Origin: Promethearchaeota archaeon | GTDB taxonomy: Archaea; Asgardarchaeota; Lokiarchaeia; Sigynarchaeales; SOKP01 | Length of the DNA: 16,904 nucleotides | Direction of reading: 5' to 3' | NCBI GenBank assembly: GCA_014729315.1 | Contig: WJKD01000559.1 | Location: forward strand, 1 to 16,904 | Shown: one piece after another, positions 3 to 16,600 of the stretch | Numbering within the stretch: position 1 is the first letter of the stretch | How the letters are laid out: the number at the start of each line of letters is the position of its first letter | The notes under the pieces: model-generated | The model's database searches: none | The model's input: only the letters and a program-made list of their open reading frames with translations | Told to the model about the DNA's origin: nothing | Position numbers and translations under genes: made by a program

Positions 3-1988
3 TTTAATGAACGCCTCTCTAAACTCAATTCTGAAGTTCAAAAAAAGAAGATCTATTTAGACGAAATATCTAAAAAAATTGAAAAAGTCAGTCTAAAAGA
101 AGGAAATATAACTCAAGAATTAGAGAAGTATTTAGAAAAATTTGGCAATGCTATAAAACATCAAAATCCAAACGAAAATGGATATAATAAAAATGAAATG
201 CCTCCCACCTCTGAAGATAGTAGCATAGCATCTAAAAATAAATTCGCTAACGAAAACGGAATAAACTTTATTACGAAAATTGAGGATCTACTATTAAAAT
301 TGACCAGAAGGAAAAATCGCAAGGAGGTTAAATTAAGAATAATCTTGAATAAATATATTGAAAAAAAAAATATTATTAAAAAGCAAATTCAAGAATCGTC
401 TGAAGAATTAGTAAAGTTATACCATCATAAAAATTCAGAGATTAAAAAAACGATTAAACAGCAATTAGAAGAAAATTATCTCTACCATAAATCTTTAATA
501 GAAAAGAGAATAGTTGGTCTGTTTGAACAGAAATATAATAAATACACCGGGTCCTTAGAGAAAAACAAAAAAAGATTAGAAAGGATAAAAAAGAAAATTA
601 GCGATTTAGCCGATGAAGCGAGCTTAGTGAAAAATCATATTAAGAAAAATAAAAGAAGATTAAAAGAAAAATTAATAAACGAATTAAATCAGAAAAATCA
701 GGTTAAAGGAGGATATTCGAAAGAACTAATTAAACAAATCACTGAAACTAGCTTATCTCAACTGGACGATGAAATCAAAAATGAATTATCGATTGAAATA
801 AAGGCAATACATTCTGAATTGAGATTAAAAAAGGATAGGTTAAATTTCTTAACTGAAAAAATAAATTTAGATAGGAATAACATAAAAGATATTCGCAAGA
901 AAATTCAAGACTTAATTTCTAAATATCAATCAGTAATTAATCAGTACACTATTGAATGGCAAAAAAAATTTCAAAAAAAAGACAGTAAAAAGCTCGAAAT
1001 GCATCTCGAAAATAAAAATCTCAATAACCTATTGATCAGTATCGAAGAAAAAATTGCAAAAGAGCATGATAATCTGAAAATGGCATCAGAATCTGTTAAC
1101 GAGCGAAAAAAAAAGCTCAGTTTAATTAAAGAAACCATTAAAAATTTAGAAATGGATCTAGACATCATGCAACAAGAAAGATTGCAAGAATCAAATTCAT
1201 GTTTAGAATTAAATCATAATTATTACCAACTTAAAGATACAAAAGGAGTAAAGCAAAAACTAAACTTTTCAAAAAATTCTAAAATAAAGAAAATCGAATC
1301 TATCATCAAAACTGAGAAATTAAAACTTCAAAAAATAGGAATAAAGTTAAAATCATTAAGATCTGAAGAGAAATCTCTAATAAATATTATCAAAATGGTT
1401 GAATCTAAGGCTGAACCAATAAATAAATTTGAACAAAAAATCAAAGATATAAAACTGGATGATCTAAAAAAGATTTACAAAGAAAAACAAGAATTATCTT
1501 TTGAACAAGAAAACGCTATAAGAATGGATATAAATAATCAATTTAAAAACAAATTTTATCTTTTGAAAAAAAGGATATTAAAACAGAAAAAATATTTAAG
1601 CCAAATTAATAGTCTCGTCTTAGCTCATATCAATTCTTTAAAGAAACTTAAACTTAGGATTGAAATAATTCGGCAAAAAGTGGCTGAGAATATAAGTGAA
1701 ATGATTTCCAGAAAAACTATTATTTCTAATTCCCAACTTAAAGACTTACTTTCAGATTTAATCAAAAACATTAAAAAAAATGCATTTCTAACTTCAAATA
1801 AAAAAAGAATTGAGAAAAATATCGCTAATTTAAAATCAACTCATTCAAGAATAATTGAAGAAGAAAATTCCCAGCTAAAGAAAATTATTATGAAGCTTTA
1901 CGAAGAATACGAAGCAAGAATGGTTAAATTATCAAAGGAAATCGATTGGTTGAATAACGATTTCAAGCTGATAGAATCCGTATTTTAA
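3..1988 (+). CDS. Long coiled-coil protein, 5' end outside the window
   Basis: The frame is open from base 3 to the stop TAA at 1986-1988, giving 661 visible codons. The first in-frame ATG is at 198, but 65 uninterrupted codons of the same Lys/Glu/Ile-rich composition precede it, so 198 is very probably internal and the gene is partial at its 5' end. The protein is almost wholly charged and helical (runs of Lys, Glu, Asn, Leu, Ile; almost no Gly, Pro, Trp or Cys), typical of a long alpha-helical coiled coil. A short Pro/Ser-containing break lies at the ATG region (around 180-235), so it may join two rods. No Walker motif, membrane helix or signal is visible. A structural or SMC-like rod role is conceivable, but coiled-coil composition alone does not identify a family. 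Function unknown. Confidence 0.8.
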   Translation, partial: FNERLSKLNSEVQKKKIYLDEISKKIEKVSLKEGNITQELEKYLEKFGNAIKHQNPNENGYNKNEMPPTSEDSSIASKNKFANENGINFITKIEDLLLKLTRRKNRKEVKLRIILNKYIEKKNIIKKQIQESSEELVKLYHHKNSEIKKTIKQQLEENYLYHKSLIEKRIVGLFEQKYNKYTGSLEKNKKRLERIKKKISDLADEASLVKNHIKKNKRRLKEKLINELNQKNQVKGGYSKELIKQITETSLSQLDDEIKNELSIEIKAIHSELRLKKDRLNFLTEKINLDRNNIKDIRKKIQDLISKYQSVINQYTIEWQKKFQKKDSKKLEMHLENKNLNNLLISIEEKIAKEHDNLKMASESVNERKKKLSLIKETIKNLEMDLDIMQQERLQESNSCLELNHNYYQLKDTKGVKQKLNFSKNSKIKKIESIIKTEKLKLQKIGIKLKSLRSEEKSLINIIKMVESKAEPINKFEQKIKDIKLDDLKKIYKEKQELSFEQENAIRMDINNQFKNKFYLLKKRILKQKKYLSQINSLVLAHINSLKKLKLRIEIIRQKVAENISEMISRKTIISNSQLKDLLSDLIKNIKKNAFLTSNKKRIEKNIANLKSTHSRIIEEENSQLKKIIMKLYEEYEARMVKLSKEIDWLNNDFKLIESVF

Positions 1989-2254: not shown

Positions 2255-3994
2255 TTATTCGAGCAATTTATCGATTAATTTGTCTTGTTTTTTACTAGAT
2301 TTTCTCTTTTTAATTGCGACTCCCACAATTAAAGAAGTAGTTCCTCCGACTCCTGCTAATATGAAGAGTCCGGGTATCGAAATTAAATTCGATTCCTTAT
2401 CATCATCGTTACTATTATCTGTGTCGTCGTCTCCACCGTTATCCGGACTTTGTACGGGAGGGATATAGGTATAGTCGCTCAAAATAAATGCCACTTTATA
2501 ATACGGCGGAAGATGTGAAGCGTCTTCAGTTTGGCAATTTACTTGTCCCTCTTCTATTATGCTAATTCCTGTTAAAGAATCTTCAGTATCTTGATCTGAT
2601 GTCCCTGTTCCACATCCATGAGGATAATCGCCCCATGATGGTATATCTATACTAACTGTAGTACCGGTTATAACATCACAATTATGTTCATGTCCTGGAT
2701 CGTTTACATCGTGATTATGCTTCGGTAAATCGGTGTATGTATGATAATGCGTTAAAGTACCACCAAATTGACCTGGATCCTCCCCCCCACTAACACTACG
2801 TAAAAATTTTCCGGAAAGATTAGGTGTAAGACTATTTGCTCCATTACAAAAAATCCAATCGTCTGGGATAGAATCAATTGTGTTCGCCCATATGGTAATA
2901 ATTCCCTTCGGAATAGGGGAAATACCGGGCACATCGCTTTTTTTCATGATAAAAGCTATCTTGTAATATGGAGGTAAAATATTTTCCGCTTTGTCAGTCT
3001 CACAGTTTTCTACACCTTCATCGTTAACAGTTATACCTGTATATGCCGTTTCAGAAGTTACAGATGACCATGTGTTTTTTCTCTTAGCTTGGTCATTACC
3101 TGCGTCTCTATCAGTGATTTTTGTTCCTCCCCATGTTTGAATTGCGTGTTTATGTCCTGGATCGACTATAGGATGCGAATGCTTAGGTATATCACCATAA
3201 GAATGTTCATGTAAAGTATTTCCGCCAATTTCTCCTGGAACTTGACCTTCCTTAACTCCATAAATAAAGCGATCGAGTAAAAGTGGTGTTCCATTGCTCC
3301 CATCACATAATTCCCATCCTTCGGGAATCTCATCAATTTTATCAGACCACATGACGATGCTACCAATAGGAAGGGAAGAGCTGGTTTGATTATTCATGAT
3401 AAAACTTAATCTATAATATGGTGGAATGTTGCTTGTTTCATCAGTTTGACAATTATCTAAACCTTCTTCTTCAATAGTAATATCCGTATAACTATTTTGA
3501 TCGTCGCAATCCTTATTTTGAGTACCTTCTTTTGCAATGGTTAGGCCTGTACCCCAACCATCATCATCAGCCTCATCTGAGGCTTTATCAAGATTCCACG
3601 CTCCAAATTCATGAGAATGGCCTGGATCGGTTATTGTGTGAGTGTGTTCGGGAAGTTCACTATATTCATGGGTATGTGTTTCACTTCCTCCTTTAATACC
3701 TGGTTGTTCACCGTTATTTAATACTCCATAGACGAAAGTATTATTCAACTCTGGAGTTCCATTACTACCGTTGCATTTCACCCATGTGTTTGGTATATTT
3801 AAATCGTTCCACAAAACGATTAATCCTTTCGGTACACAGTTTAAAGCCGAACTATTAAGATTAATATTTTCAGATATGTCATTGTTTTCTTGATTGATCC
3901 TTGTAGTTTCAGTTTTAAATAAAGCGATAGTCAGTATCAACAATAAAAACACTAAAAAAAAGTGGAGTTTCCTAATTTTCAAAATTGTATTCAC
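2255..3994 (-). CDS. Membrane-anchored surface protein with three tandem phage-tail-collar-like domains
   Basis: 579 residues. An N-terminal hydrophobic segment (about 10-26) is a likely signal peptide or anchor. Three homologous domains follow (about 54-200, 208-350, 360-505). Each opens with a PxGxIxxW...W..C.G strand, then TP.L...F..(G/S)V, a GG...H.H segment, and closes with PPYY(R/K)..FI. This is the layout of the phage tail collar / microcystin-dependent protein family. Each domain carries three histidine pairs (HTH, HTH, HSH / HEH, HSH, HKH / HYH, HNH, HEH) and DPGH. After an acidic Asp/Asn linker (about 518-536) comes IPG, a hydrophobic helix (about 541-562) and KKRK, a tail like an archaeal surface-anchor signal. 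The start is GTG: a TAG lies in frame three codons upstream, and a TATA box sits about 23 bases before it, so the mRNA is probably leaderless. Ligand unknown; possibly adhesive. Confidence 0.85.
   Translation of the reverse strand: MNTILKIRKLHFFLVFLLLILTIALFKTETTRINQENNDISENINLNSSALNCVPKGLIVLWNDLNIPNTWVKCNGSNGTPELNNTFVYGVLNNGEQPGIKGGSETHTHEYSELPEHTHTITDPGHSHEFGAWNLDKASDEADDDGWGTGLTIAKEGTQNKDCDDQNSYTDITIEEEGLDNCQTDETSNIPPYYRLSFIMNNQTSSSLPIGSIVMWSDKIDEIPEGWELCDGSNGTPLLLDRFIYGVKEGQVPGEIGGNTLHEHSYGDIPKHSHPIVDPGHKHAIQTWGGTKITDRDAGNDQAKRKNTWSSVTSETAYTGITVNDEGVENCETDKAENILPPYYKIAFIMKKSDVPGISPIPKGIITIWANTIDSIPDDWIFCNGANSLTPNLSGKFLRSVSGGEDPGQFGGTLTHYHTYTDLPKHNHDVNDPGHEHNCDVITGTTVSIDIPSWGDYPHGCGTGTSDQDTEDSLTGISIIEEGQVNCQTEDASHLPPYYKVAFILSDYTYIPPVQSPDNGGDDDTDNSNDDDKESNLISIPGLFILAGVGGTTSLIVGVAIKKRKSSKKQDKLIDKLLE
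2480..3835 (-). repeat. Three tandem copies of a collar-like protein domain
   Basis: Coding repeats of about 430-440 bases lie at 3835-3395, 3373-2945 and 2917-2480 (minus-strand order). They are diverged in sequence, but share the Trp/Cys-Gly opening, the three His-x-His pairs with identical spacing, an (E/D)EG...NC(Q/E)T(D/E) motif near the end, and the closing PPYY. The divergence argues for old duplication rather than recent expansion. Confidence 0.8.
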
Positions 3995-4374: not shown

Positions 4375-7278
4375 TTAATGTTCTTTCTTTTTCTTAATAT
4401 CGTAGCTATTTATCCAATATTTAAGACTTAGTCTTCTTGCTTTGACTTTTTTTAATTTATTTATTTGGTAGGAAAAGAGAATCATTGCTGCGATTGAAAG
4501 AATAGTTCCGATAGCCATAGTAGATGTAATTATTAGTTTTTTGAGTTTTAACGCAGTATACAAAGATTCTTTAAATTCATTAGCTTTTTCTTCGGTAATT
4601 TCAGCCTCTTTATCGAACCATAAAATCGGTATAATAACTTCCGTATTATTAGGGTACCATTTATCGGTTGGTGTTGCTCTAAAGTTGATTTGAATTCTTT
4701 GTCTAGCCCTCATAGTCATACCGGTAATCGGCTCTACATCGATATATGTTTCGTGTTTTTCCGTGTTAGGATGCATTCCAATAGTATCGTTCTTTAAAGA
4801 TTCATCAGCGTAAAGAAGATGCGGGTGACTAAGATAACAAGGGATCCCATACTCCGGATACATATTTAGAAGCCCCTTAGTGTCCATAAAAAAAGTAGGA
4901 TTAGGCTCAAATACATCTTCTTTGAAATTGAATCTAAAAAGATTAATTCCATAGATATCCGTTTTCTTTCTAAACTTAAACTCAGCAGGACGTTTCAAAT
5001 CAGATATACAAATGTCAAGATCGTCATGTTTAGAGATACCTGGAGCAAATTGTGTGCCGTCTGTGCCGCTTACAGGAACAGGCTTTGCCCATATTAAATA
5101 CTTTTCTTTACCGTTATAAGAAACAAATTCTTTAGATTCTTTGTAATTTCCTTTTCCGGTCTTTATGGTAAATCGGTCTGTACCAATTTTTCTTGCTTCA
5201 GAGTCGGTGGTACAATTAGAAAAAATATTTACATTGGCTAATTCGGGGTCGATATCCTTTATAAAACCATCTACGGCGGTAAATAGCCATTCCTCAACGG
5301 TTCGCGTAGTAATTAACCCGCTATTCAGATCATTAATTACTTCAAATAAGATGTTGTTAATCCAACTTTTTTTCGATGTGTCTAGCCAAGAACATATCAT
5401 ATTTATCTCACTGTCATCAAGTCCAAATTCAAGCTTCAAGGTCTCTTTTATTTGCTGATCACCCGAAGCAGCAAGAAACCACTTTAAGACACCATCTGAA
5501 GTTAGAGAATACTTATTATTTTGATTCCATAGTGCTTTAGCAGTTGAATGAGAGGTTGATACGCCGCAGTATAAATCATTTTCAGCACCGTAATTAATTC
5601 CTGTCCTATTTTCTAAATATATTCGATCGATATCAATATCGTACACTGCCTCGTCTAAGGCGTCGTAAACAGACTGATGTATTAATGGTTCAAATTGTTG
5701 ATTAAGTTCATAAAATTCGGGAAAAACTCGATATTCTGTCCATATATTGGTAGAATGTTCAATCCAATCTAAGACAAGTTCAAGATCGTCCTCTCGATTT
5801 CCCCCAAAATATGTATTCAATAGATTTTGTCGAGACTGTGAATTTCCTTCTAATGCTTGAATCCAAAGGGAAAAATCGCCGCCATTTAACGAATATGAAT
5901 CTGTTTCGTCCCATAAATTTTCAAAAATATAATTATTATAACTCATTCCATTAGTATCTATATCTGTTAGAGATATTTCTGTCATTGTAGGTCGTCCTTC
6001 AAGTTGGATTCCACTTAACACATCGTCCCCTGCTTCTTGAACTTGAGCAGTTATTTCCTCAGGGGGTAAGTCTTCGTCATATACCGTTCTCTGAAACGGT
6101 CTAACCCCCCAATAAAGCGTCATATGGATATTTTCAAAATCCTGTGGATCCATAGTCGGGAACCTTCCTTCCCCCCACCAATAATGAAAGGCTTCGGTAG
6201 CAAATCCTTCTCTGTTTACAGCATCCTTGATTCTGTCTTTAATCTCGTTAGCGGCATTTGAAATCTGAGCCCTATTATCATCTCTATTGACATTAAGTCT
6301 ATCATCAACTTCTAATATGTAATCTACTAATGCTTCTCTGATAGTACTATAAATATCATTCCAAAAATCATTATTCGATGGTGCGACAGTATCTGATAAT
6401 TTCTGGTTAAAAGTCTCAAGTATTTCTTTATAAACGATTGGTGTAACCATTTTCAAATTCTCTGTAGTATTTTCAAAAAGACGATGATTTGGTACGTCTA
6501 TTAAAGGTGTGCCCACATTCCATTCACTTACAAAAATCTCATCAGAGGCAGGTACAGTTTCTCTAATATAATCTTTAACTACTTCCAGCAATCCAGAATC
6601 TTCTAACATACTGTAATTTCCGGGATCTATCTGATCGCTGATTAAGGTTTCAAGAGCCTCGTCATTCAACAAAGTCTCTTTTTCTTCGTTAAAAATTTCG
6701 TCGAACATTTTATGTACCTCTGATAACACTGTAGAAGTTCCCGTTTCAGTAATATTATCTTCTGTATTAGCGATATCCAATACGCCTAAATACCCCGGAT
6801 TGATATTGGTTATTTTATCATTTAATCTGAGAGGTGACGAATGTCCTTCTTTAAATTCGTATGTATTATACTTATTATAAGAAACAAGTTCTTTGTCTTC
6901 GCTAAAAGCAACATCATATTTGGTTTCGTATACTCGAAAAACAAACGGTCCAACTTCTGCTAAAATGGGCTTTTCTCCCTCCAAATATTCTTCTGGATTC
7001 GTTAAATTCCACATATAAAAGCTAGTATATGCAGGAATGGAACTTTCTTTTGAAGAAACCCATTCGTCATAATCTTCGTCATCTGGGTCTGGAACTGTAA
7101 TTTGTTCTTCAATCGCCTGGTCAATCTCATCTTGAATTAAATTATTGACCAGAGGGGTACTAAGCAAAAAACTAACTCCCAAGAGAAAGAGAAAGCAAGT
7201 TGCTATGTATTTTTTTCTACTTGGCTTATATAACAGAGACTTATGTGGCAATATATTTGCATTCTTATTTTTTTTCAT
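4375..7278 (-). CDS. CD36 / LIMP-2 / SR-B family membrane protein with a large insertion
   Basis: 967 residues, about twice the length of animal CD36 (about 470). Topology matches the family: short basic N-terminus, first membrane helix (about 25-45), long ectodomain, second helix (about 914-936), short basic tail. Family signatures are clear: W73 followed by IPAYTSFYMWNLTNPEE (81-97), GEKPILAEVGPFVFRVYE (101-118), SYNKYNTYEF (133-142), TDGTQFAPG (739-747), LSHPHLLYAD (816-825), GMHPNTEKH (834-842), EPITGM (849-854) and PILWF (884-888). Between the two conserved blocks lies an extra region (about 190-690) containing an internal duplication. At least seven N-x-S/T sites are present (for example N91, N175, N270, N557, N688). 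Eukaryotic relatives bind or move lipids and lipoproteins or act in lysosomes; the ligand here is unknown. The ATG has GGAG at 7289-7292, ten bases upstream. Confidence 0.9.
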   Translation of the reverse strand: MKKNKNANILPHKSLLYKPSRKKYIATCFLFLLGVSFLLSTPLVNNLIQDEIDQAIEEQITVPDPDDEDYDEWVSSKESSIPAYTSFYMWNLTNPEEYLEGEKPILAEVGPFVFRVYETKYDVAFSEDKELVSYNKYNTYEFKEGHSSPLRLNDKITNINPGYLGVLDIANTEDNITETGTSTVLSEVHKMFDEIFNEEKETLLNDEALETLISDQIDPGNYSMLEDSGLLEVVKDYIRETVPASDEIFVSEWNVGTPLIDVPNHRLFENTTENLKMVTPIVYKEILETFNQKLSDTVAPSNNDFWNDIYSTIREALVDYILEVDDRLNVNRDDNRAQISNAANEIKDRIKDAVNREGFATEAFHYWWGEGRFPTMDPQDFENIHMTLYWGVRPFQRTVYDEDLPPEEITAQVQEAGDDVLSGIQLEGRPTMTEISLTDIDTNGMSYNNYIFENLWDETDSYSLNGGDFSLWIQALEGNSQSRQNLLNTYFGGNREDDLELVLDWIEHSTNIWTEYRVFPEFYELNQQFEPLIHQSVYDALDEAVYDIDIDRIYLENRTGINYGAENDLYCGVSTSHSTAKALWNQNNKYSLTSDGVLKWFLAASGDQQIKETLKLEFGLDDSEINMICSWLDTSKKSWINNILFEVINDLNSGLITTRTVEEWLFTAVDGFIKDIDPELANVNIFSNCTTDSEARKIGTDRFTIKTGKGNYKESKEFVSYNGKEKYLIWAKPVPVSGTDGTQFAPGISKHDDLDICISDLKRPAEFKFRKKTDIYGINLFRFNFKEDVFEPNPTFFMDTKGLLNMYPEYGIPCYLSHPHLLYADESLKNDTIGMHPNTEKHETYIDVEPITGMTMRARQRIQINFRATPTDKWYPNNTEVIIPILWFDKEAEITEEKANEFKESLYTALKLKKLIITSTMAIGTILSIAAMILFSYQINKLKKVKARRLSLKYWINSYDIKKKKEH
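5329..5955 (-). repeat. Internal duplication inside the CD36-family insertion
   Basis: Residues about 442-530 and 560-650 can be aligned by eye: LW(D/N)...(S/K)YSL, then (L/K)W..A..G, L...FG, about ten residues, W(I/L)..S...W and a following Phe/Val-rich helix. They are strongly diverged but keep the spacing of the Trp, Gly and Phe residues. The unit is about 90 residues. Confidence 0.6.
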
Positions 7279-8871: not shown

Positions 8872-9642
8872 TCAGTTTTTTTCTTTAATTAACCAATTTG
8901 CTAACTTCTCAGGTAGAAAAAAACCTAAATAATATTCAAACACGCTTGATATCATCAAAATTCTGAAAACAATAATCAGAGGAACAGTGAGAAGCGAAAT
9001 TTCTTCAAAAAATAAACCAACATAAACTACTTCAATTAGACTTATCGAAAAAGAAACAAAAGCTAATAATAAAAAACGTCCTTTCCATTCTATGTCTGGA
9101 TAACCCGAATTTAAGGCTCTTTTAGCTAAAATAATACCGGTAAATAAGACTACTAAAACTGCAAACATTTTAAATATAACAGCAAATAATTGAGGAACTA
9201 TGAAGTAGATTCCGGAAATTGTAGCGACTAATTCAGGAGATGAAAAAATTAAAATCCACAATAATATCTCATATATTATGCAAACAGTTGAGAAAATTGA
9301 GACTATTATTTTTTTTTTCTCTGGGCAAATAATGAGACAATAAGTATAAATCCAGAATATCAAAGAAAGAGGGATCGTAGCATTATAAATAATTAAATAT
9401 AAAATATAGTTTAATCTTATCTTGAACAAGACATACATAATAAATGAAAGCGAAACACCCCACCACGCTACGCTCAGAAGTAGCCAAGCAATGGGAGCTG
9501 TTAAAAAAACCGTTTTTCTAAATTTTACATATTTTAAAAGTAGTTTTATCCCGATGATTGAAGAAACAACAACGAATATGGTATCACAAATTCCAAAAGT
9601 AATTTCAATTGTAGACAAATTTTCAATTCCGATTTTCCACAC
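8872..9642 (-). CDS. Seven-helix integral membrane protein, unknown function
   Basis: 256 residues, almost entirely hydrophobic, with seven helices at about 13-36, 45-70, 77-105, 110-134, 145-174, 187-211 and 217-240 and a basic C-terminal end. No conserved Lys in the last helix (so no rhodopsin chromophore site), no transporter motif and no kinase or GGDEF domain attached. The helix count and the Asp/Glu/Tyr spacing resemble uncharacterised seven-helix sensor-like proteins, but I cannot assign a family. The start is GTG at 9642: an in-frame TAG lies directly before it and the next in-frame ATG would delete most helices. A TTTATAAA box at about 9706-9716 would give a leader of roughly 40 bases. 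Confidence 0.7.
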   Translation of the reverse strand: MWKIGIENLSTIEITFGICDTIFVVVSSIIGIKLLLKYVKFRKTVFLTAPIAWLLLSVAWWGVSLSFIMYVLFKIRLNYILYLIIYNATIPLSLIFWIYTYCLIICPEKKKIIVSIFSTVCIIYEILLWILIFSSPELVATISGIYFIVPQLFAVIFKMFAVLVVLFTGIILAKRALNSGYPDIEWKGRFLLLAFVSFSISLIEVVYVGLFFEEISLLTVPLIIVFRILMISSVFEYYLGFFLPEKLANWLIKEKN

Positions 9643-9945: not shown

Positions 9946-12522
9946 ATGGAAATTTTGGATAAAGCAAGCGAAAGGATTAAAAATATCCGTAGAAGGTTTC
10001 TCGATGATAAAACATTAATTTCGGTGGAAAGAGCAAAGTATTACACCGAAAAATGGTCTGAAACTGAAGAAAGAGATTTACCTATTGGAGTTCGAATCGC
10101 TCTATCTATGAAAAATGTCTACGAAAATATGACAATGTACATTGATCCGGACGATCGCATAGCGGGGAAATGGACTGAAGGTTTTCTTGGGATTCCAATT
10201 GACATAGAGAGAGGTATATGGAACAGGATTCTTGAAACTGAAATCGATAAAAAATCAATGAAAAAATTTGCGAGAAAATTTAATAAAGCTTTTATAGAAT
10301 ATATGAGCGCTAAAGGAATAGACCTTATCAAGTATGTAGAAAAAATAAAAAATTTGGGCGCTGCGATACCAACTATGGGCGATAAACCGTTAGACCAGAG
10401 GAAGATAAATTCATTTCAAATAGAAGAAGAGGATAAGAAAACGCTATTAAACGAGTTGTTGCCATTCTGGAAAGGAAAAACCGTCGCAGAATTAATAGAA
10501 GAAACCTACCTAGAAAACCATATCTATAAGGGAGAATTTTATGATTTTATTAAGCACGTACCAATAAAGAAATCCCAAGATCAGCCAATCATTTCAAGCA
10601 ACGCTGTAATTGGAGGATGGCAAGGACATATAATTCTTGATCATGAGAAAGTAGTACAAAAGGGATTATTAGGTCTACGAAATGAAGTTCAAGAAGAAAT
10701 TAAAAAGAATAATAATTTTTCAAAAGAAGAAATGGGATTTTTAAATTCTCTTGATATAGCTCTTGAAGGAATAATGATTTACGCAAAAAGACTTTGTGAG
10801 AAACTTCACGAGGAATTGATTAACACCGACAATTTAGAAAGAAAAGCAGTATTATCTGAGATGTACGAAATTTGTAAAAATATTAAGTTTAAGCCCGCAA
10901 AAACCTTTCGGGAGGCTGTTCAATTATATTGGATTATTAAAACCACTGTTGATTTAGCGCTTCCATTTAATGTACATGGACCAGGACGACTTGATCAAAT
11001 TTTTTATCCTTACTACAAACGAGATTTTGAAGATGGGAGAATTACTTCAGAAGAAGCTTGCGAATTATTAGAAGAATTGATCTTAAAAGTGATGAGTCAT
11101 AATATTCGCCCTTATCCGGACGCTCTATCAGATTTCAGTCAAAGATACGAGGGTTCAGAGCCAATTACTTTAGGTGGTCTAACTGAAACCGGACAGGATG
11201 CTACAAACGATCTCACTTATATTTTGTTAGATGCTGCTGAACGGTCAAAAGCTTGTCTTAATTTCGCTGTACGACTGCACGATAACACGCCCGAGGAATT
11301 ATACTTAAAACTCGCTGATCTCAATTCTAGAGGTATATCGAGTATTTCTATGTTAAACGACAACATCTCTAAAAAAGCGTTAATCAAAAGAGGAGTCTCA
11401 GAGAAAGATGCCCAAGGTTATTGTATAACTGGTTGCGTCGACATGTCTACTCCTGGAAAAACAGGGGGGATTGGGTTTTCAGCTATTTTATTATGCCAAA
11501 CTCTCGATACAACTCTTCGAAATGGTAATTCAAAGACTTTAGTTGGAGTAATAAAAGACATAGGTCCTAAAACTGGAGATCCCAATTCTTTTAAAACATT
11601 TGATGAATTTCTTAGCGCATTTTATAAACAATCTGAGTATGTAATCAACCATATCGTGGAAGGGGCTTATCTCCGAGATCAAGTATACGCTAAGAATTTA
11701 CCCTCTCCATTTTTGTCTGCTTTTGTCCAAGGTTGTTTAAAAAATAGAAAAGATGTCACTCAAGGAGGAGCGAAGTATGACGCCGAAGGTATTCTTTTTA
11801 TCGCAAGTATTGCAAATTTAGTCGATTCAATATATGTAATAAAAAAATTGGTATTTGAAGTAAAAAAGTTTTCCTTAAAAGAACTCGTTGACGCTATCGA
11901 CAATAATTTTAAAAACGGATACGAATGGATTCACGAATTGATTATCAAATTAGAAGGAAAATGGGGAAACGGAAATCCAGAATGCGATAACTTAGCCCGA
12001 GAAATCACCACTCATCTATTTGAAGAAACTTATAAGTACAAGACTTACAAGGGAGGTATTTACGCCCCTTTCATCATTAGTATGACTACGCACACCTACG
12101 TAGGACGAATTTCCTTAGCAACTCCGGATGGAAGATTGGCGGGTAAACCATTTGCAGCAAGCTGTAATCCATATAATGTTGAGAAAAATGGTCCAACTGG
12201 CGTTTTAAGATCCGTTTCTACGCTCAATTTCGAACATGTATGTGGTTGCGCTGTTAATATTCGAATGCATCCATCAGGAATTGGGAAAACCGAAGAAGCT
12301 AAGAGAAAATGGATTTCGTTGATAAAAACTTACTTTCAATTAGGTGGTGAACAACTTCAACCAACTGTTGTTTCTGAAGAAACCTTGAGAGCGGCTCAAA
12401 AAGATCGCGATAAATATCGAAATGTTATAGTAAAAGTAGGAGGCTATAGTGCCTATTTCGTCGATCTAGGAAAGGAAATCCAAGAAGAAGTAATTTCTCG
12501 AACTGAACATATGTTAGTATAA
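9946..12522 (+). CDS. Glycyl radical enzyme (pyruvate formate-lyase superfamily), substrate unassigned
   Basis: 858 residues, the usual length of the dehydratase/decarboxylase branch of the family. The C-terminal radical loop reads VIVKVGGYSAYF (827-838), placing the glycyl radical at Gly833. The thiyl cysteine is Cys497 in ITGCVDM (494-500). Other family features are PAKTFREAVQLYW (317-329), HGPGRLDQ (344-351), PDGRLAGKPFA (727-737) and NIRMHPSG (771-778). Dehydratases and hydroxyphenylacetate decarboxylase have Cys-x-Glu at the active site; here it is Cys-Val-Asp, and PFL itself has Cys-Cys, so this is not a plain PFL. Candidate reactions are C-C or C-O cleavage of a small organic acid, polyol or arylacetate; the sequence alone does not decide. 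Oxygen-sensitive, hence anaerobic. The radical-SAM activase it needs is not in the window. The AGGAG site at 9932-9936 supports the ATG. Confidence 0.9.
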   Translation: MEILDKASERIKNIRRRFLDDKTLISVERAKYYTEKWSETEERDLPIGVRIALSMKNVYENMTMYIDPDDRIAGKWTEGFLGIPIDIERGIWNRILETEIDKKSMKKFARKFNKAFIEYMSAKGIDLIKYVEKIKNLGAAIPTMGDKPLDQRKINSFQIEEEDKKTLLNELLPFWKGKTVAELIEETYLENHIYKGEFYDFIKHVPIKKSQDQPIISSNAVIGGWQGHIILDHEKVVQKGLLGLRNEVQEEIKKNNNFSKEEMGFLNSLDIALEGIMIYAKRLCEKLHEELINTDNLERKAVLSEMYEICKNIKFKPAKTFREAVQLYWIIKTTVDLALPFNVHGPGRLDQIFYPYYKRDFEDGRITSEEACELLEELILKVMSHNIRPYPDALSDFSQRYEGSEPITLGGLTETGQDATNDLTYILLDAAERSKACLNFAVRLHDNTPEELYLKLADLNSRGISSISMLNDNISKKALIKRGVSEKDAQGYCITGCVDMSTPGKTGGIGFSAILLCQTLDTTLRNGNSKTLVGVIKDIGPKTGDPNSFKTFDEFLSAFYKQSEYVINHIVEGAYLRDQVYAKNLPSPFLSAFVQGCLKNRKDVTQGGAKYDAEGILFIASIANLVDSIYVIKKLVFEVKKFSLKELVDAIDNNFKNGYEWIHELIIKLEGKWGNGNPECDNLAREITTHLFEETYKYKTYKGGIYAPFIISMTTHTYVGRISLATPDGRLAGKPFAASCNPYNVEKNGPTGVLRSVSTLNFEHVCGCAVNIRMHPSGIGKTEEAKRKWISLIKTYFQLGGEQLQPTVVSEETLRAAQKDRDKYRNVIVKVGGYSAYFVDLGKEIQEEVISRTEHMLV

Positions 12523-16333: not shown

Positions 16334-16600
16334 ATGAATATTGAGTATTTCTTAGATGTTTTAAAGCCCCATCATCCCTCCAATGATCTTCTCGCTCGGA
16401 CGCTAAGTCAATTAACTGGTGTAACATATGTGAGAGTTAAAGTGGATGAGATAGATCAGCGAACAACTTCAATTTTTATTACCATTCGAGGTACCGAAGA
16501 AATGTCTCTGGAGAAAATAACCCAAACCTTAGAAGAATATAACTGCTCGCTCCATTCGGTAGATACAGTATCTATTCAAAAAAACGAAGATAAAGGATAA
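16334..16600 (+). CDS. DUF211 family protein
   Basis: 88 residues, matching the roughly 90-100 residues of this archaeal family. The pattern VLKPHHPS (9-16), then an alternating strand/helix fold with TGVTYVRVKVDEIDQRT and IFITIRG, is that of DUF211, a small ferredoxin-like (ACT-type) fold. Structures of archaeal members form ring-like oligomers, but no biochemical function is established. The stand-alone gene with its own promoter gives no functional context. The ATG is supported by the family's usual N-terminus and by the TATA box position. Confidence 0.8.
   Translation: MNIEYFLDVLKPHHPSNDLLARTLSQLTGVTYVRVKVDEIDQRTTSIFITIRGTEEMSLEKITQTLEEYNCSLHSVDTVSIQKNEDKG

Follow-up and report, generated by a model that had tools for sequence, protein, structure and literature searches.

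Human LIMP-2/SCARB2 (4f7b, 4q4b) and CD36 (5lgd) are the closest relatives of known structure to the protein described here. A eukaryote-wide survey of their family, in its accessible text, traces CD36/LIMP-2 proteins to the last eukaryotic common ancestor and links them to the phagosome, with 0 occurrences there of 'archaea' or 'prokaryot' (PMC10715195). Longer homologues of ~750-780 amino acids (aa) occur in Dictyostelium, and the fold resemblance of the PorA/LmcA family to CD36 is already in print. In the open PubMed Central literature, judged largely by title and with supplementary tables excluded, we found no account of an archaeal or Asgard CD36-family protein; automatic PF01130 labels are already attached to the archaeal proteins in sequence databases. 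Here we describe a CD36-family membrane protein encoded on contig WJKD01000559.1 of a Promethearchaeota archaeon, a stretch of 16,904 bases that was analysed whole and is called the window below. The gene is an uninterrupted frame from ATG to stop at exactly 4375-7278 of the minus strand, on which all features of the protein lie, and encodes 967 aa, which makes the protein roughly twice as large as animal CD36. What is new is a helical apex of ~470 aa with two copies of a module common to dictyostelid proteins.

Family assignment and origin of the contig

Pfam finds a single family in the window protein, CD36 (PF01130, E 1.6e-89, two stretches), at 301 bits against a curated cut-off of 26.5. 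Comparison of sequence alone recovers the solved structures of LIMP-2 at E 1.2e-39 and of CD36 at E 1.4e-32, and both are colinear with the window protein at residues ~47-164 and ~632-935. The predicted structure contains the asymmetric beta-barrel core of the family, and its closest fold match is LIMP-2. On this evidence the CD36-family assignment is secure. It had been made in a preliminary description of the window, which would have given it up for a predicted fold lacking the barrel; the barrel is present. The motifs quoted there all stand in the translation: NPEE (residues 94-97), GEKP (101-104) and EVGPFVFR (108-115) near the N-terminus, and LSHPHLLYAD (816-825), GMHPNTEKH (834-842), EPITGM (849-854) and PILWF (884-888) near the C-terminus. 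An alignment of 20 Asgard-type sequences, the window protein among them, shows little or no variation at many of the motif positions.

The predicted barrel is divided between an N-terminal part (residues 45-172; 6763-7146), which holds the first LIMP-2 stretch and has a predicted local distance difference test score (pLDDT) mostly >90, and a C-terminal part (residues 648-912; 4543-5337; pLDDT ~95) in the second PF01130 stretch (636-935). Two hydropathy peaks, predicted to be the terminal membrane helices proposed earlier, flank it at residues 23-48 (7135-7212; a helix over 21-60 in the models) and 914-939 (4462-4539). The tails beyond them are rich in K and R, with 8 K/R and 0 D/E at the N-terminus and 11 K/R and 2 D/E at the C-terminus. 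By the positive-inside rule, both tails therefore probably lie inside the cell, and the acidic ectodomain of 868 residues outside.

Three ectodomain disulfides are reported for several mammalian and insect SR-B members in the accessible text of PMC10715195. The window protein has only five ectodomain cysteines (571, 629, 689, 757 and 814), too few for three disulfides, and ~470 extra apex residues instead of the short three-helix bundle. It belongs to the CD36 family but stands outside the metazoan SR-B subfamilies (CD36, SR-BI, LIMP-2), differing from human LIMP-2 and human CD36 in these respects as well as in being archaeal.

A eukaryotic or misassembled contig, which the preliminary description had allowed for, could be argued from a length of only 16,904 bases, judged without reads. 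Against it stand the intact open reading frame, the base and codon make-up of the CD36 gene, which resembles that of its neighbours, and the identities of the protein core: 59.5% to P0002 and 40.0% to P0019, the other two Loki-type proteins in the comparison, 31-38% to four Heimdall-type proteins and 24-29% to 11 eukaryotic rows. ('Heimdall-type' denotes the clade of L008, L037, P0059 and L038, none so named by its source. The Heimdallarchaeota name comes with L009, which is close to a copy of L008, though partial, and shares its gene order.) Scanning one genome per species turned up nine CD36 loci in eight Asgard metagenome-assembled genomes on contigs of 6.7-504 kb, with three of these relatives on contigs of 114-504 kb; seven loci are labelled Lokiarchaeota, one Heimdallarchaeota and one unclassified archaeon. 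The relative L037 lies near a gene that we take, from a motif, to be archaeal EF-2. In the window, a DUF211 gene (COG1888) at 16334-16600 presumably belongs to an archaeal family. Within the Asgard phylum, to which the comparisons of neighbouring genes were confined, the RNA 2',3'-phosphodiesterase-like gene of the window reaches 63% identity in G002 (the genome of Lokiarchaeota locus L002), and the pyruvate-formate-lyase-like gene is 81% identical in G114 and 76% in G005 (the genome of Lokiarchaeota locus L005). The independent loci refute contamination or misassembly in practice and, with the archaeal neighbours and the codon make-up, led us to reject it as exceedingly improbable. Asgard origin is borne out by the independent loci and the neighbouring genes, and the contig is most likely Lokiarchaeal.

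The apex insert and its modules

The ~470 residues that separate the two halves of the core are unmatched by sequence in LIMP-2 and CD36 and were absent from the preliminary description. They make up a helical apex region (residues 173-641; 5356-6762) mostly without an animal CD36/LIMP-2 counterpart, corresponding to a gap at residues 164-632 in the alignment to solved structures. The apex is modelled as many helices, with low-confidence parts at residues 257-467 and 508-566. It contains two copies of a helical module of ~60 aa. Copy 1 (residues 453-514; 5737-5922) is matched by the profile of the other copy at E 2.8e-11. Copy 2 (residues 577-641; 5356-5550), which adjoins the C-terminal core, is matched at E 1.6e-21 by a profile that includes its own row and at E 2.2e-7 by a profile of dictyostelid segments only. 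Compared directly by blastp, where the search space is very small, the two copies match at E 6e-7.

The Loki-type module profile was built from 20 Loki-type rows, the window protein being represented by copy 2. It matched 73 of 125 proteins and 0 of 2,500 shuffled sequences; two copies were detected in the window protein only. The Heimdall-type proteins L008 and L037 were matched at ~1e-8 and P0059 at 1.9e-5. Among dictyostelid-type proteins 13 of 14 matched (E 1.8e-7 to 3e-3), so that the Dictyostelium homologues have both the long apex and the module in common with the window protein, at 24-27% core identity; two detectable copies set the latter apart. The profile had no match in the dictyostelid protein P0023, in P0024, P0121 and P0122, in the fish protein P0061 or in the fish-like P0062; after one rebuilding it matched P0023 at 9.9e-6 and P0121, in part, at 8.8e-5. 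A reciprocal profile of 14 dictyostelid segments only, themselves located with the Loki-type profile, matched 52 of 111 other proteins (best L037, 8.6e-15) and no shuffled sequence. All 52 are Asgard-type, some by similarity alone; no protein with an animal or protist name is among them.

Long apices of CD36-family proteins are held to have arisen independently in the published view, as given in the accessible text of PMC10715195. An independent origin in dictyostelids does not fit a module common to Asgard and dictyostelid proteins, and to judge from these profile matches the shared module argues against that view. Heimdall-type proteins carry a second module of ~120 aa in tandem, with one copy in L008, two in L037 and four in P0059. 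Outside its seeds it matched only the Percolomonas protein (E 2.5e-4), a hint and not proof.

Distribution, PorA-like signal and phylogeny

The search of Asgard genomes with PF01130 that the preliminary description had proposed gave matches over the cut-off in 11 of 227 genomes, and in 0 of 14 control genomes. Protein searches returned at least 24, at least 89 and at least 28 matches; the named organisms among the matches listed are either Asgard (Promethearchaeota, Hermodarchaeota, Hodarchaeota, Lokiarchaeota) or eukaryotic. Pattern matches in viral contigs numbered 71 stretches, and no relative was among them. The CD36 gene is accessory within Asgards. Apparent local duplicates are L004 and L007, on one contig, and P0011 and P0017, which have neighbouring locus numbers and lie on contigs of equal length.

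The family also shows a sequence signal toward bacterial carriers. Mycobacterium smegmatis LmcA/PgfA (PorA family, PF11271, DUF3068; 7n3v, 7shw) has ~10% identity to the window protein, which has no PF11271 match and thus falls outside that family; LmcA is described in the accessible text of PMC8972800 as having no three-helix apex bundle. A PorA-like signal was found in 12 of 36 cases on the Asgard side (best 7.3e-8) and in one of 18 eukaryotic cases (E 0.031). A compact Asgard protein of 607 aa (L038 549-2372, the same gene as L023 535-2358) scores above the curated cut-off for CD36 and also above that for PorA, in the latter case with 32.5 bits in L023 against 29.5. It may bridge the two families, and by their profile matches some Asgard members form a sequence bridge to PorA/LmcA. 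Bacterial LmcA/PorA carriers and eukaryotic receptors would thereby be linked by sequence, not only by fold. Solved LmcA itself was unmatched up to E 10 from an Asgard PorA-like protein, the compact Asgard CD36 protein and a 13-row CD36 profile. Single matches to Muramidase, ToxT_N, DUF3185 and similar profiles were taken as chance.

Two further PorA-type genes were seen. L033, from a genome of the Asgard phylum, encodes a PorA-family protein of 318 aa (618-1574, minus strand) at 45 bits against 29.5. A search of plasmids with PorA-type queries only gave a single match, a Legionella adelaidensis plasmid gene (L036, 1225-3114) whose product fuses a PorA domain with the substrate-binding domain of an ABC transporter. 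The accessible text of PMC9678360 calls the PorA family exclusive to actinobacteria.

Rows for the trees were chosen from 122 proteins and 40 loci (30 Asgard-type proteins, three loci and 13 eukaryotic or unnamed proteins), leaving out further Asgard proteins, most fish LIMP-2 near-copies, other dictyostelid copies and partial proteins. A first tree (593 columns including the apex, 46 rows) was poorly resolved, with three changes for Asgard, three for eukaryotes and two for Heimdall-type rows. Its replacement used 391 core columns and dropped the very long rows P0024 (unk643) and P0121 (unk856), which left 44 rows, 33 of them Asgard-type and 11 eukaryotic. The core tree was left unrooted because the two PorA outgroup sequences are very distant and would be placed by long-branch attraction. 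It supports Loki-type (29 rows, 100/98), Heimdall-type (four rows, 99/95) and eukaryotic groups (11 rows, 97/90), the Asgards attaching between animal-type and protist-type eukaryotic proteins. Three quick re-runs, all without P0024 and one with P0121 restored, kept Loki-type and Heimdall-type rows each on one side, and eukaryotes on one side in two of the three. Approximately unbiased (AU) tests gave borderline values for clades of Percolomonas with Asgard (p 0.047), dictyostelid with Asgard (p 0.043) and dictyostelid with animal proteins (p 0.047).

This tree bears on a choice left by the preliminary description, for which deep archaeal branching would support ancestry and nesting within one eukaryotic group would support transfer. 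In this unrooted tree, with few eukaryotes sampled, the Asgard proteins nest in no sampled eukaryotic group, which fits ancestry but does not settle the choice between ancestry and an early transfer. In an early transfer, an Asgard ancestor would have received a long-apex CD36 gene from a protist, and the gene would then have spread among Asgards. The patchy spread agrees with this, as do the age and wide occurrence of CD36 in eukaryotes (accessible text of PMC10715195) and the unrooted tree, from which no direction can be read and in which Asgards lie between animal-type and protist-type proteins. Running counter to it are the lack of nesting, the rejection, if only just, of the two clades that join Percolomonas or dictyostelids with Asgards, the existence of two deep Asgard types with different apex architecture, and a PorA-like signal seen more on the Asgard side than on the eukaryotic one. 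We consider an early transfer somewhat unlikely; pre-eukaryotic ancestry of the family is favoured, but not shown, by these sequence comparisons.

Proposed function and neighbouring genes

By analogy with solved relatives, the window protein is most likely a lipid-tunnel receptor of the cell surface. Two membrane helices would anchor the ectodomain outside the cell, and its predicted asymmetric barrel would enclose a hydrophobic tunnel. The long helical apex sits at the ligand-recognition site of animal CD36/LIMP-2 and would most likely select the ligand, capturing a lipid, or a lipid-carrying particle or protein, outside the cell; from there the barrel would deliver the hydrophobic cargo into the membrane. 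The Asgard-eukaryote ancestor most likely had the family, which most Asgard lineages would later have lost. As a whole, this reading of a Lokiarchaeal CD36-family surface receptor inherited from that ancestor is the one we lean towards, with reservations.

The main functional rival is a LIMP-2-like cargo role, in which the protein binds a protein or particle, much as LIMP-2 carries a hydrolase, or else serves in adhesion or sensing; the barrel would then be a scaffold, with lipid passage no part of its task. The apex is the variable part, with two module copies here and tandem copies of module 2 elsewhere, as might be expected of a recognition surface, and the closest fold match is LIMP-2. The barrel core, on the other hand, is the conserved part, and the accessible text of PMC8972800 reports a central cavity in each of CD36, LIMP-2 and LmcA. 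We regard such a role as unlikely.

Several points weigh against an inherited lipid-tunnel receptor. The tunnel and ligand are inferred from relatives, and the structures on which AlphaFold2 was trained include CD36 family members. No PF01130 match was found in 216 of the 227 Asgard genomes, whose completeness is unstated, so that misses may be gaps; a spread this patchy would require many losses, or transfers among Asgards, under ancestry. The closest copies of the neighbouring pyruvate-formate-lyase gene are those of G114 and G005. In G114 the pyruvate-formate-lyase, ArsR-type and hydrophobic-protein genes are kept together, but the 19.5 kb inspected there contain no CD36 gene and the genome gives no PF01130 match; in G005 no CD36 gene lies beside the pyruvate-formate-lyase gene, one being found on another contig. 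The module profile has no match in the Asgard protein L038 or the Percolomonas protein P0022. The eukaryotes of the unrooted core tree are dictyostelids, one heterolobosean, fish and one short protein, and they need two changes once P0121 is added. Nor do AU tests reject Heimdall-type proteins grouping with the long protist proteins (p 0.104) or the animal-type proteins (p 0.077).

CD36-type receptors, a component of lysosomes and phagosomes in eukaryotes, may predate eukaryotes themselves. A fuller scenario, with a modular-apex lipid-tunnel receptor in the Asgard-eukaryote ancestor, common descent with LmcA/PorA and vertical passage to the endolysosomal and phagocytic system, is tentative, and we hold it with slightly more doubt than belief. 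If true, the long protist apex would be ancestral and the short animal apex reduced, the reverse of the published hypothesis. A stable archaeal branch and a module shared with amoebae make a pre-eukaryotic, pre-phagocytosis origin of an endocytic lipid receptor testable. Archaeal membranes differ in lipid type, and the cargo of the receptor therefore bears on how the lipid change could have happened.

At four of the nine loci, from two Asgard types, a PIG-L (GlcNAc-PI de-N-acetylase) gene lies within ~3 kb of the CD36 gene by blastp (L001 9183-9920, L003 9253-9945, L008 2218-2913, L009 1983-2678); its identity was checked by Pfam in L001 and L008, and none was seen in the window. Other genes of the window include a predicted surface protein at 2255-3994 (minus strand) with a phage-tail-collar match, repeats and hydrophobic ends; in this gene a 35-base unit occurs in three copies 450-465 bases apart. 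The pyruvate-formate-lyase-like protein (9946-12522) is a glycyl radical enzyme, for which no activating enzyme was seen in the window; a radical-SAM gene near the copies in L049 and L050 resembles, by its motif, such an activating enzyme. A hydrophobic protein without a Pfam match is encoded at 8872-9642 (minus strand) and has homologues in other Asgard loci, one of them near a CD36 gene in L007.
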